DNA from: Acidobacteriota bacterium
GTDB taxonomy: Bacteria; Acidobacteriota; Terriglobia; 20CM-2-55-15
Assembly (NCBI GenBank): GCA_003223875.1
Contig: QHWY01000100.1
Location: forward strand, 1 to 64,000
Direction: 5' to 3'
Length of the DNA: 64,000 nucleotides
Part shown: positions 12,719-17,178 of the stretch, in pieces
Layout of the letters: the number at the start of each line of letters is the position of its first letter
Numbering within the stretch: position 1 is the stretch's first letter
Made by a program: the position numbers and the translations under genes
Notes under the pieces: generated by a model
What the model was told of the DNA's origin: nothing
Databases searched by the model: none
The model's input: only the letters and a program-made list of their open reading frames with translations

Positions 12719-13204
12719 ATGAAGTCACTCATTGTTGCTTTGCTTCTGGCGATGCAGGTTCAAGGCGTGGCCCCGAACATCTCCGGCTTTTCCATCCAGG
12801 GCACGACGGTCAACCTGAATTCCTTTAAGGGTAAGAAGTCCGTCCTGGTCGTCTTTTACCGGACTCAGGCTTGAGGGTTCTGCCGCGCGCAGCTCGGCGA
12901 GCTGCAAAAAAATTATCCGAAGATTAAGAGCCTCGGGGCGGAGATGATTGCAGTGAGTGCAGATGCCCCTGCCGATGGTCAAAAGGTCGCGACCGAGTTG
13001 AACCTGACCTACCCGATCCTCTCCGATATCTACAAAAATTTCATAAAGCAGTACGGAGTGCTACACCCGACGGAAGGCATCGCACGGCCTTCGATGTTCA
13101 TTGTGAACAAGGAAGGCAAGATTGTTTGGAAGTACGTTGGAGCGGAGGCGAGCGACCGCCCGCCCATCGATACGGTGCTCCAGCAACTGGCGGCAGCGAA
13201 ATAA
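12719..13204 (+). CDS. Peroxiredoxin-like protein with predicted selenocysteine (TGA at codon 52)
   Basis: The frame runs from the ATG at 12719 to the TAA at 13204 (161 residues) with one in-frame TGA at 12872-12874. Upstream of it the protein has a signal peptide-like start (MKSLIVALLLAMQVQG) and FSIQGTTVNLNSFKGKKSVLVVFYR; downstream it has GFCRAQLGEL, EMIAVSADA, YPILSDIYKNF and PSMFIVNKEGKIVWKYVG, a full AhpC/TSA redoxin fold. The TGA falls exactly where these proteins carry the first Cys of CxxC, giving U-G-F-C. A hairpin with the spacing of a bacterial SECIS follows. Likely an exported thiol peroxidase or oxidoreductase. A nonsense mutation is the alternative. Confidence 0.85.
12872..12905 (+). 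promoter_or_regulatory. Predicted bacterial SECIS element after UGA
   Basis: The TGA at 12872-12874 is followed, 21 bases on, by the apical loop of a perfect 7-bp stem: GCAGCTC (12889-12895), loop GGC, GAGCTGC (12899-12905). A G at the first loop positions and 16-37 nt between UGA and loop are the known features of SelB-binding elements. The stem overlaps coding sequence for a conserved RAQLGEL segment, as expected for in-gene SECIS. Confidence 0.7.
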
Positions 13205-13262
13205 TTCGGGGACAGACACCGAATTACTGAAGTAAAGAAATTCGGTGTCTGTCCCCCGAATT
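13203..13262. repeat. Palindromic repeat / bidirectional terminator (GGGGACAGACACC family)
   Basis: Arms AATTCGGGGACAGACACC... (13203-13225) and its complement (13239-13262) differ by one inserted C and enclose 13 bases. It overlaps the stop codons of the two convergent genes on either side, so it may end both transcripts. The GTCCCCGAATT end recurs at 16738-16747. From memory, repeats of this sequence style are found near REP-associated transposases in other genomes; not verified here. Confidence 0.75.
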
Positions 13263-14982
13263 ACACCAATCTGCCCGGATTTTTCTTATAGCGATTCACG
13301 ATCGCATCGGCACTCATGTACGCAAGCGCTTGAATCGTGAGGGTCGGATTGAACCCGCTCATCGTCGGAAATGTCGAACTGCCGATGATGAATAGGTTCG
13401 GAATATCCCAGCTTTGGCCGTAGCGGTTTACGACCGAAGTCTTCGGGTTATCGCCCATGCGCGTCCCGCCTTCGTGATGCGCGCCCGGAGCACCTGCGCC
13501 CATGGGCGAGCGCCAGTACCGTGTCGCACCCATGGCGGCGGCTAACTGCTCCAGCTTGCCAGTCAAGAACTCGATGCGCGCGAGCTCATTAGGCCGGCGC
13601 CAATCATAGGTCAGCCTCGGCGCTGGTAATCCCCACTGATCACGGACGGTAGGATCGAGATCGATGGTTTGGTCGGCATAGGGCAAGTTCTCAGTTTGCG
13701 CAATAACGGCGGCGTAACGCGCGAAATACTTCGCAAGGAAATCGCGATAAGCAGCGCCCCACCGCGGAATACCAGGCGGCGGATTCATGCTCATGGCGGC
13801 GCCGATGGGACCGCCTTCCAGATCCGCGGGTGAGACGGAGATCTGACCGCCCCGGATGAATTTCAATCCACTGTGGTCGAAGTTGTCCGCGTTGAAATCG
13901 TCGAGGCTGTGTTTCTGCGCATTCGGCCCCATGTAGATGTTGACAAACCGGTCCTCGAACGTCGCGAACACTCGGGGAGTGATGTGCGCCATGAGATGCT
14001 TACCGAGCTGGCCGCTCGAGTTGGCCAATCCGTTCGGGAATTTCCTCGTCTTTGAAACGAGCAGCAGACGCGTATTGTCGTAGATAAAAGTCGCAAGAAT
14101 GACGAGCTCCGCCTCGATGGTGTTCGTGGAGCCATCCGGTCCGTAATACGACACGCCGGTCACACGCCCGCTGTTGTCACTGTTCACGCGGAAGCACATC
14201 GTGCCGGTCAACAGCTTGAAGTTGCCGGTCGCATCAGCCTCCGGAAGTTTCGTGACGAGGATGCTGGATTTCGCGCCGACGTGGCAGCCAAACGCCTGGC
14301 AAAATCCGCAGTAAGTGCAGCTCGGCCGGCCATGATACGACTGCGAGAGGATCGCGCGCGGTGTCGAGAAGGGGTGGTGGCCGAGCTTGTGAGCCCCCTC
14401 TTCAAAGATGAGGCCCGATTGATCCGCAAGCAACGGCGGCAGCGGATACTCCCGGCGGCGCGGCGCTTCAAATATATTGCCGCCTTCGATCTTACGTCCT
14501 TCGAGGTTTCCAGCCTTGCCCGATACGCCAAGCTCGTACTCCGCGCGATCGTAAAAAGGTTCGAGATCCGCGTAAGTCAATGGCCAATCAATCAGCGATG
14601 AGTCTTTTGGGATCGCCGACGATCCATAGCGCTGAATCGTCTGTGACCGCACGCGGAAGTCGTCCTCATGAAAGCGCCAAGAGACGGCCCCATAATGGAC
14701 CGTCCCGCCGCCGGCCTGATTGCCATAGTTCAGAATGGGAAGCGGCTTCGCGGCCGCGTTCGCACTCGCGCGCCAGGTCACCGGCTGGCGCTTTGCGTTT
14801 GGACGCAGATCCTGCCGCTGGAAGTAACGCAATTCGTCCTGACCGCTGAAATCCGCCGTGCTCAGGCGCGGGCCACGCTCCAGGCCAATGACTTTCATTC
14901 CTGCTTTGCCAAGCTCGGCGGCGAGTATTCCGCCTACAGCGCCCATACCGACGATGACGACATCCGTTTTTTCGGTTGCCAT
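13261..14982 (-). CDS. GMC-family FAD-dependent oxidoreductase
   Basis: A 573-residue flavoprotein of the glucose-methanol-choline family that oxidises an alcohol or sugar. It has the dinucleotide-binding start VIVGMGAVGGILAAELG, GGGTVHYGAVSWR in the middle and the C-terminal domain with HHEGGTRMGDNPKTSVV and MSGFNPTLTIQALAYM. No signal peptide is evident; it is probably carried out by its partner. The gluconate-dehydrogenase subunit 3-like gene lies 17 bases upstream and has a Tat signal, giving the usual exported two-subunit dehydrogenase. A cytochrome partner is not adjacent. Substrate unknown. Confidence 0.92.
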   Translation of the reverse strand: MATEKTDVVIVGMGAVGGILAAELGKAGMKVIGLERGPRLSTADFSGQDELRYFQRQDLRPNAKRQPVTWRASANAAAKPLPILNYGNQAGGGTVHYGAVSWRFHEDDFRVRSQTIQRYGSSAIPKDSSLIDWPLTYADLEPFYDRAEYELGVSGKAGNLEGRKIEGGNIFEAPRRREYPLPPLLADQSGLIFEEGAHKLGHHPFSTPRAILSQSYHGRPSCTYCGFCQAFGCHVGAKSSILVTKLPEADATGNFKLLTGTMCFRVNSDNSGRVTGVSYYGPDGSTNTIEAELVILATFIYDNTRLLLVSKTRKFPNGLANSSGQLGKHLMAHITPRVFATFEDRFVNIYMGPNAQKHSLDDFNADNFDHSGLKFIRGGQISVSPADLEGGPIGAAMSMNPPPGIPRWGAAYRDFLAKYFARYAAVIAQTENLPYADQTIDLDPTVRDQWGLPAPRLTYDWRRPNELARIEFLTGKLEQLAAAMGATRYWRSPMGAGAPGAHHEGGTRMGDNPKTSVVNRYGQSWDIPNLFIIGSSTFPTMSGFNPTLTIQALAYMSADAIVNRYKKNPGRLV

Positions 14983-14999
14983 AACCTATACCTCCGCGT

Positions 15000-15641
15000 C
15001 TACAGGCCAGTGACTGGCGCGCGAGAGAACGCTTGTTTGCTCTCCAGGTCCGTTCTGGTAAAGATCGGCTGTGCGCCGGGAAAGCCCACCAAACGCCATC
15101 CCGCAAAGTCTTTATTGCCGCCGTAGATCGGGTCGGCGAACATTCCTTCCATCGTGTGCGTGCGGATTGTATTGAAGAACTCCTGTGCCGTGGGCCACGT
15201 GAATTCTGTGGCCTCGCCCTGCTCGAGTGCTCTGATCACTTCGTCCTGACGCGCGGCATTCAGCCGCACGAACGGCTCGTTGTATCTTTTGCGGCACAGG
15301 GCATCGAGTTGCGCCAGCCCGTGCCGGTAGAAATCCTGAAGATCTGCGTAAGCGCCTGCCAGGGCGAGATCAATGTAATGGAGTACTCCCGTATCGTGTG
15401 CGCCAGGCTTTCCGGGCGCACCCGGCATCAGCCGTTCTGTGAATGCCGCGACGGTCGCCGCATCGTCGCGGTTGAAAAACGCGCCATGCCGGTCCTCGCC
15501 TGAATGCGATTGAGCGGAAGCGTTTGCTTCCTTCGGCGATTCGGTAGTCTGAGCCGGCACGAGTTCCGCACCGGCAATGGCTCCCGTTCCAACGATTGCG
15601 CGCACCAAGAATGTGCGGCGTCCCGGATCATGTTCCGTCAT
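15000..15641 (-). CDS. Gluconate 2-dehydrogenase subunit 3 family protein, Tat-exported
   Basis: A 213-residue small subunit of a membrane-bound GMC dehydrogenase. The N-terminus carries a twin-arginine signal (RRTFLVRAIVGTGAIAGAEL, residues 8-27). The mature part has the family features FNRDDAATVAAFTERLMPG, HYIDLALAGAYADLQDFYRHGL and a C-terminal DPIYGGNKDFAGWRLVGFPG. It is the first gene of the pair, so the flavoprotein likely hitch-hikes through Tat with it. Confidence 0.9.
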   Translation of the reverse strand: MTEHDPGRRTFLVRAIVGTGAIAGAELVPAQTTESPKEANASAQSHSGEDRHGAFFNRDDAATVAAFTERLMPGAPGKPGAHDTGVLHYIDLALAGAYADLQDFYRHGLAQLDALCRKRYNEPFVRLNAARQDEVIRALEQGEATEFTWPTAQEFFNTIRTHTMEGMFADPIYGGNKDFAGWRLVGFPGAQPIFTRTDLESKQAFSRAPVTGL

Positions 15642-15770
15642 TGACCTACCCCCTCTTACTTTGCTTGACTTTGCACCATATTCCAGTCGCTCAACTGGGT
15701 CAATCTAAACCGACCCCGTCCAACAAACGTGGAACGAACCACAAAAAGCACAACAACGTAATTTCTCCGA

Positions 15771-15776
15771 TATAAT
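15771..15776 (+). promoter_or_regulatory. Possible -10 box upstream of the B3 lactamase-fold gene
   Basis: TATAAT at 15771-15776 lies 47 bases before the ATG at 15823, but no good -35 hexamer is seen at 16-18 bases upstream. The 181-bp gap here separates divergent genes and also holds a CCACAAAAAGCACAA half-repeat at about 15739. Confidence 0.3.
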
Positions 15777-15822
15777 CGACGCACTTATCATTTCACTGTC
15801 GATTCAAATTCCGGAGGTTCTG

Positions 15823-16707
15823 ATGCGTAACGCCGTGTTGCTAATTATCATGAGTTCGGTGTTTGTCTGGGCGCAGACCTCGCCACTATCTCCGGAACAA
15901 CGAGCCACGTTCCATGGGCGACAGAGTGAGGCGGTGGAGCCGTTCCGAATCGTCGGCAACATCTACTATGTGGGCGCGAGAAACATTGCGTCGTACCTCA
16001 TCACCACGCCCGAAGGGCACATCATGATAGACACCGGCACAAAGGAGATGCATGACGTGATCCGGACGAATGTCGAAAAGCTTGGTTTCAAGCTGCAGGA
16101 CATCAAGATACTTCTATCGGGACATGCCCATTTTGATCACGTACAGGGACACGCGGCCATGAAAAGGCTGACGGGCGCGAAAGTTATGGCGATTGGCGAG
16201 GACGCTCGAGCGCTAGAAGCCGGAGCCGACTTGTCACCGCTGGGCGATGAGGGATGGGAGCCGGTCAAGGTCGATCGCGTGTTAAAGGACGGCGACACGG
16301 TCATGCTTGGTGGGACAACATTACGCGCTGTTTTGACACCCGGCCATACGCCGGGATGTACCACGTGGACGACTGGGGTTGAGGAAAAGAGGAGGCCCTA
16401 CTCTGTCGTTTTTCAGGCCTGCGGAGGCCCCAACGCTGGAGTCAAGCTGATTGGGAACTCAAAATTTCCGAGGCTCGTCGAAAACACGCTGCGGACGTTC
16501 CAGGTCCAGGAAACTCTCAAGCCCGACATCTACCTGCCGATGCATCCGGAAACTTATTTTGCCGGCAAGGTCGAACGTATCAAGGCCGGCGAAACACCGC
16601 ATCCGTTGTTCGATCCGGACGCTTACACCAAACTGATTTCCGAGACGGAAGCCAATTTTCAGAAGCGGGTCCAAGAAGAGCGCGCGAAGGCAATTCGGAT
16701 ACAGTGA
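15823..16707 (+). CDS. Subclass B3-like metallo-beta-lactamase fold hydrolase, exported
   Basis: 294 residues with an N-terminal signal peptide (residues 1-18), start supported by GGAGG 7 bases upstream. The zinc-binding motif is GHAHFDHVQG (HxHxDH), with TPGHTPGCTTW for the next His and LPMHPETYF near the end for the last His, the ligand set of subclass B3. True B3 enzymes hydrolyse beta-lactams; many environmental relatives have other or weak activity. ARNIASYLITTPEGHIMIDTG is the family lead-in. It may be a carbapenem-active enzyme, but that cannot be concluded from sequence. Confidence 0.85.
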   Translation: MRNAVLLIIMSSVFVWAQTSPLSPEQRATFHGRQSEAVEPFRIVGNIYYVGARNIASYLITTPEGHIMIDTGTKEMHDVIRTNVEKLGFKLQDIKILLSGHAHFDHVQGHAAMKRLTGAKVMAIGEDARALEAGADLSPLGDEGWEPVKVDRVLKDGDTVMLGGTTLRAVLTPGHTPGCTTWTTGVEEKRRPYSVVFQACGGPNAGVKLIGNSKFPRLVENTLRTFQVQETLKPDIYLPMHPETYFAGKVERIKAGETPHPLFDPDAYTKLISETEANFQKRVQEERAKAIRIQ

Positions 16708-16770: not shown

Positions 16771-17178
16771 ATGGGCGGCACCAATCCTTACGTCAATCAA
16801 GAGGCGCCGGCTCCGGCGACTCAAAAATTTACGATTACTTTTCTGCCCATGAACGTTACCGTGGAAGTGGATCCGGAAAAGATCCCGTTTGGCGTGACTG
16901 GTCTGCCGGGCAGCATTCTGGACATTGCTCTGGCTCACGGTATCAATCTCGATCACGCCTGCGGGGGTGTGTGTGCCTGCTCGACCTGCCACTGTATTGT
17001 GCGCGAAGGTCTGGAAACAATTTCAGAAATGAGCGAGGCTGAGGACGAAGAGCTCTCATTCGCGCCGGGTCTTACCCCCAATAGCCGGCTGAGCTGCCAA
17101 AGCGTTCCCAATGGCACGCGAAACCTTGTTGTGGAAATTCCGAATTGGAACCGGAATGTGGTACGCGAGAGCCATTGA
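16771..17178 (+). CDS. 2Fe-2S ferredoxin, adrenodoxin type
   Basis: 135 residues. The cluster ligands are in HACGGVCACSTCHC and the distal LSCQ, the spacing of ISC-type ferredoxins. The acidic interaction helix (EMSEAEDEELSF) is intact. The first 26 residues form an unusual Pro/Ala-rich extension before MNVTVEVDP; the start could instead be that internal Met at 16849. It is a soluble electron carrier for iron-sulfur assembly or an oxygenase. No isc genes are near. Confidence 0.88.
   Translation: MGGTNPYVNQEAPAPATQKFTITFLPMNVTVEVDPEKIPFGVTGLPGSILDIALAHGINLDHACGGVCACSTCHCIVREGLETISEMSEAEDEELSFAPGLTPNSRLSCQSVPNGTRNLVVEIPNWNRNVVRESH

Follow-up and report, generated by a model that had tools for sequence, protein, structure and literature searches.

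Positions 12719-13204 of the window (the whole 64,000-nt stretch of Acidobacteriota DNA analysed here; the selenoprotein gene, the sites within it and the ferredoxin gene given below lie on the forward strand) hold a reading frame with a single interruption, a TGA at codon 52 (12872-12874). Read through this codon, the frame gives a product of 161 residues with the peptide FYRTQA-U-G-F-C-RAQL around the predicted selenocysteine, Sec52, the first residue of a UxxC motif; the second is Cys55 (codon 12881-12883). The Pfam AhpC-TSA/Redoxin domain (PF00578) spans residues 17-137 unbroken (E = 4.7e-30) with the TGA inside it, in agreement with an earlier sequence-only reading that had noted conserved redoxin sequence on both sides of the TGA. 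That reading had also expected standard gene callers to split the gene, and ORF calling with table 11 indeed cuts it into pieces of 51 and 86 residues. By motif scan, 14 places in the window have a TGA in a UxxC, CxxU or TxxU context; the one at 12872-12874 has homology on both sides. A PHROGs match, to a family of unknown function, adds nothing.

Counting the source, the gene was found in eight genomes of one Acidobacteriota family, in the other seven at 57-94% identity to the window protein, with the TGA at codon 52 kept in all eight. Those relatives that carry names are Acidobacteria MAGs and include gp5 isolates and Candidatus Sulfopaludibacter; as far as named, the sequences are metagenome assemblies. 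A contig scan with two peptide patterns found no close orthologue outside Acidobacteria. In one MAG (L063, 2000-2420), transposase-like sequence takes the place of the orthologue's 5' half, as far as the LGELQ codons, which lie within the stem of the putative hairpin described below; since the sequence upstream of LGELQ is unrelated, L063 was excluded from the orthologue set. Relative to the window gene, dN/dS for the part after the TGA is 0.04-0.27 (rough values, as dS is near saturation in several pairs), which argues that this part is translated and under purifying selection. These comparisons bear on another reading of the TGA, in which it is a true stop or an inactivating mutation that leaves a fragment of 51 residues, perhaps with a further start at ATG 12944. 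Standard ORF calling returns exactly these two pieces, but the same TGA recurs in eight assemblies down to 57% identity, dN/dS is low on both sides of it in most pairs, and both the UxxC motif and the stem are conserved between the TGA and ATG 12944. We consider a genuine stop very improbable.

The TGA had been proposed to replace the first Cys of a redox CxxC (giving U-G-F-C), for which Cys homologues aligned at the TGA were the suggested check. Such homologues were found (L065, L069 and L072-L074); their motif is CxxC, with Cys at the position of the TGA. The genes for selenocysteine insertion (selA, selB, selD and tRNA-Sec), of which selB and tRNA-Sec would by their absence have counted against recoding, were sought in the source genome (6.58 Mb in 489 contigs, 93% complete), and all were found: one SelB above the curated cut-off, SelA, SelD and a tRNA-Sec with the anticodon UCA. 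The SelD of this genome (L026, G000:C103:2815-3738) is probably also a selenoprotein, as there is one in-frame TGA inside its gene. Across the source genome and 150 others of the same class, SelB is present in 114 of 151, including all eight that have the selenoprotein gene. Among the best redoxin matches listed, 124 of 139 rows in SelB genomes carry the TGA, compared with 3 of 11 where the genome has no SelB match (p about 1e-5); the assemblies of those three are only 84-91% complete, so SelB is possibly just missing from them. A genome-wide reassignment of TGA (for example, to Trp) or a sequencing error has nothing in its favour beyond the in-frame TGA itself: the TGA aligns with Cys rather than Trp, tRNA-Sec (UCA) and selA/B/D are present, and the TGA recurs in other assemblies. 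Either is scarcely credible.

A putative bacterial SECIS stem-loop lies at 12889-12905 (GCAGCTC-GGC-GAGCTGC), in which seven base pairs close a GGC loop (12896-12898); the distance from the TGA is 14 nt to the stem and 21 nt to the first loop base. It is the hairpin picked out in the sequence-only reading, with its 7-bp stem, a loop starting with G and a spacing inside the 16-37 nt range. Published bSECIS rules specify a loop of 3-9 nt, a stem of 4-16 bp, a G at loop position 1 or 2, a distance of 16-37 nt from the UGA and an MFE <= -7.5 kcal/mol (PMC13188914). The hairpin satisfies these rules, with its 3-nt loop, 7 bp, 21-nt spacing and -10.1 to -11.6 kcal/mol when folded alone. Folding alone is weak evidence, since the 46-nt region in the window has an alternative fold slightly better than the hairpin and a z-score of -0.5 against shuffles, and since 6.9% of the TGA triplets across the window have downstream of them a hairpin with 7 bp or more that satisfies the loop rules; the exact geometry (spacing of 21, 3-nt G-loop, 7 bp) occurs once among its 2104 TGA triplets. 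The folding energy of the 46-nt region, which lacks significance against the shuffles, was dropped as evidence. An Rfam scan of the window gave no matches.

The support beyond chance for the putative SECIS is comparative, and we regard it as strong evidence: the TGA is kept in all eight genes, the stem is frozen at synonymous sites, and there is covariation, by compensatory changes, in distant UxxC relatives. In the eight genes, 58 codons encode a conserved amino acid with degenerate codons, and only six of these are invariant, four of them the stem codons 58, 59, 61 and 62; outside the hairpin, 2 of 52 comparable codons are invariant (for the hairpin codons taken together, p = 5e-4). The hairpin region has two codons that vary, and their changes are confined to the loop (GGY) or to just beyond the stem (CAR). 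Among nine distant UxxC genes, with about a third protein identity, five keep 6-7 of the 7 pairs at the same spacing (CGAACTC-GGC-GAGTTCG in one of them). L004 keeps five of the seven pairs, while L038, L042 and L047 do not match the geometry and may use other hairpins. Over 17 sequences, 89% of cells are paired, with 11 double-change cells, a number reached by none of 500 shuffles; pairing drops to 29% when the partner is slid by one column and collapses with slides of 1-3 columns. The five CxxC homologues have no hairpin of the SECIS kind.

Taken with the orthologues, these observations make it almost certain, as far as sequence comparison can carry the claim, that the UGA is read as selenocysteine. 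Given what is established about bacterial selenoproteins, and the parts present in the genome, we would expect SelB, carrying Sec-tRNA(UCA) and recruited by the stem-loop 21 nt downstream, to decode the UGA at codon 52.

The sequence-only reading had called the product a candidate selenocysteine peroxiredoxin with a SECIS-like hairpin. The machinery and the Cys homologues uphold a selenoprotein with a SECIS hairpin, but the active-site motif, Arg48 and Pro124, and the clade do not agree with a peroxiredoxin. In the alignment with AhpE, Sec52 is opposite the Thr of PxxxTxxC, and Cys55 is opposite the peroxidatic Cys. Where peroxiredoxins have PxxxT(S)xxC/U, this protein has RTQAUGFC, with Arg48 (codon 12860-12862) in place of the active-site Pro and Sec52 in place of the Thr. 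The conserved catalytic Arg that precedes the last strands of peroxiredoxins is replaced in all eight orthologues by Pro124 (codon 13088-13090), at the thioredoxin cis-Pro position. These differences extend beyond the orthologues: in a comparison of 52 proteins, all 22 with UxxC or CxxC have Arg48, and Pro124 where covered (one was uncovered), whereas Arg occupies position 124 in 29 of the 30 with TxxU, TxxC, SxxC and similar motifs, and position 48 is Pro, Val or Ile in nearly all of the 30. The single exception at 124 is L006, in which the Arg is one position off. A FastTree phylogeny of 51 of the 52 proteins placed the UxxC/CxxC proteins apart from the TxxU/TxxC group with a support of 0.97. 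Cys and Sec forms interleave in the UxxC/CxxC branch (L072-L074 with L004/L080-L082; L069 with L042), and the three TxxU Sec-peroxiredoxins of the source genome (L002, L005 and L006) fall in the other clade.

The TxxU proteins of the class show some variation of their own. Many have Val or Ile at the active-site Pro position (e.g. FYVLAFTGGU) and retain the Thr and the Arg (L034-L036, L039-L041, L043, L046, L048, L050 and L053-L055). Besides the window gene, four AhpC-TSA genes of the source genome carry a TGA: the three for TxxU Sec-peroxiredoxins, at G000:C118:42059-42436 (L002), C430:28782-29162 (L005) and C263:428-790 (L006), and one for a YRSADWUPYC protein with a C-terminal extension, at C66:7421-7885 (L004).

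The predicted fold (one model from the 8-sequence alignment, mean pLDDT 84, compared with the PDB) is closer to AhpE (TM 0.85) than to ResA (TM 0.70-0.75). The fold is thus peroxiredoxin-like and the active-site residues thioredoxin-like. We rejected a true peroxiredoxin, as the U sits at the Thr position, Arg48 and Pro124 are present, and the protein groups with CxxC/UxxC oxidoreductases. The selenoprotein could still be a peroxidase, with Sec52 attacking hydroperoxides and Cys55 resolving the selenenic acid. Selenols react fast with peroxides, the domain is AhpC-TSA, and the fold is closest to the AhpE/Bcp peroxiredoxins (TM about 0.85); set against these points are the changes from Pro to Arg48, Thr to Sec52 and Arg to Pro124, common to the UxxC/CxxC relatives, and the separate TxxU peroxiredoxins already in the genome. 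We therefore judge a peroxidase rather unlikely. As a whole, the best explanation is probably a thioredoxin-fold UxxC selenoprotein, thiol-disulfide chemistry included. Computation shows the recoding signal and the machinery, a conserved Sec/Cys position and placement in the UxxC/CxxC clade. By analogy with thioredoxin-type CxxC chemistry, Sec52 would most likely be the nucleophile in a redox exchange of the thiol-disulfide type, in which a transient Sec52-Cys55 selenenylsulfide would form and then be reduced by a thiol donor.

The N-terminus of the product (12719-12766) is a probable signal peptide, MKSLIVALLLAMQVQG, judging by sequence and alignment, and is more clearly signal-like in the orthologues L032/L033 (TKLLTAALVATAWPAMA-QDA). 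The selenoprotein is thus probably exported. Upstream, the orthologous loci have AcpS, a Cu-oxidase_4 (laccase-domain) gene and, usually, a pseudouridine synthase. Downstream, in six of the seven loci compared (L057-L062), there is a [2Fe-2S] ferredoxin and a VWA protein, with the ferredoxin start within about 70 nt of the selenoprotein stop; in L030, the distance is 4 nt. The gene adjoining the selenoprotein gene in the window is a GMC oxidoreductase rather than the ferredoxin, and the same holds for L056 to the extent of its sequence. The window's [2Fe-2S] ferredoxin (PF00111) lies at 16771-17178, and between the two genes (13261-16707) are the GMC oxidoreductase, gluconate dehydrogenase subunit 3 and a metallo-beta-lactamase, found only in the window and, apparently, in its closest relative, L056. 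This block looks like a later insertion. That the ferredoxin is directly downstream in most orthologous loci suggests that the arrangement is an ancestral operon. We know of no description of a ferredoxin-linked selenoredoxin, and the idea that selenoprotein and ferredoxin form one redox unit of this kind is doubtful; a ferredoxin in the cytosol would be out of reach for a redoxin that is exported. The window also has a near-perfect long inverted repeat starting from the selenoprotein stop codon (13202-13263; -40.3 kcal/mol, z -10.5), an 18-mer of which, GGGGACAGACACCGAATT, occurs in only two other places in the genome; possible readings are a terminator and a REP-like element.

Among known systems, AhpE of Mycobacterium tuberculosis (1xxu, 4x1u and 5id2) is the nearest solved structure by sequence (26% identity) and is near the top by fold (TM 0.85), but it is a 1-Cys peroxiredoxin, in which the residues corresponding to Arg48, Sec52 and Pro124 are Pro, Thr and Arg. 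The ResA-type thiol-disulfide oxidoreductases share a CxxC-type motif and the Pro before the last strands, with a fold similarity (TM about 0.70-0.75) below that to AhpE. The TxxU Sec-peroxiredoxins (e.g. PrxU, NF040737) have the Pfam family and the fold in common with this protein; however, their Sec is the peroxidatic residue after the Thr, whereas here it is the Thr that the Sec replaces, and the protein lacks the active-site Pro and Arg. The best NCBIfam match is the SelL-related redox protein (NF040769), which at 68.5 bits (E = 5e-19) does not reach the curated threshold of 120 bits; the motif known from SelL is UxxU, whereas the motif here is UxxC. Closest in description are the Prx-like thiol:disulfide oxidoreductases (PF00578, UxxC/UxxU), listed as a predicted selenoprotein family (PMC9312934, PMC13188914); a Prx-like family with UXXC replacing TXXU was described in PMC1088965. 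The selenoprotein has both the PF00578 domain and the UxxC in place of TxxU and, like that family, a SECIS just downstream and CxxC Cys homologues. It differs as a subfamily, FYR[TM]xxU[GP]FC, found in this analysis only in one Acidobacteriota family (the reviews' family was compared by description). On this sequence evidence, we assign the protein to the known Prx-like thiol:disulfide oxidoreductase selenoproteins as a new subfamily member, its activity being a prediction.

The 'peroxiredoxin' label should accordingly be replaced, and the residues at positions 48, 52, 55 and 124 provide a rule that separates the UxxC from the TxxU branch. AhpC/TSA genes in Acidobacteriota are often split at a TGA by standard gene calling; in the source genome, 5 of the 23 AhpC-TSA matches carry one. 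The phylum is hardly mentioned in the selenoprotein literature that we examined, with four selenoproteins counted in 2006 (PMC1794560) and three reported from a single test genome in 2025 (PMC12013277). To these, the gene described here adds a well-supported, if predicted, selenoprotein subfamily.
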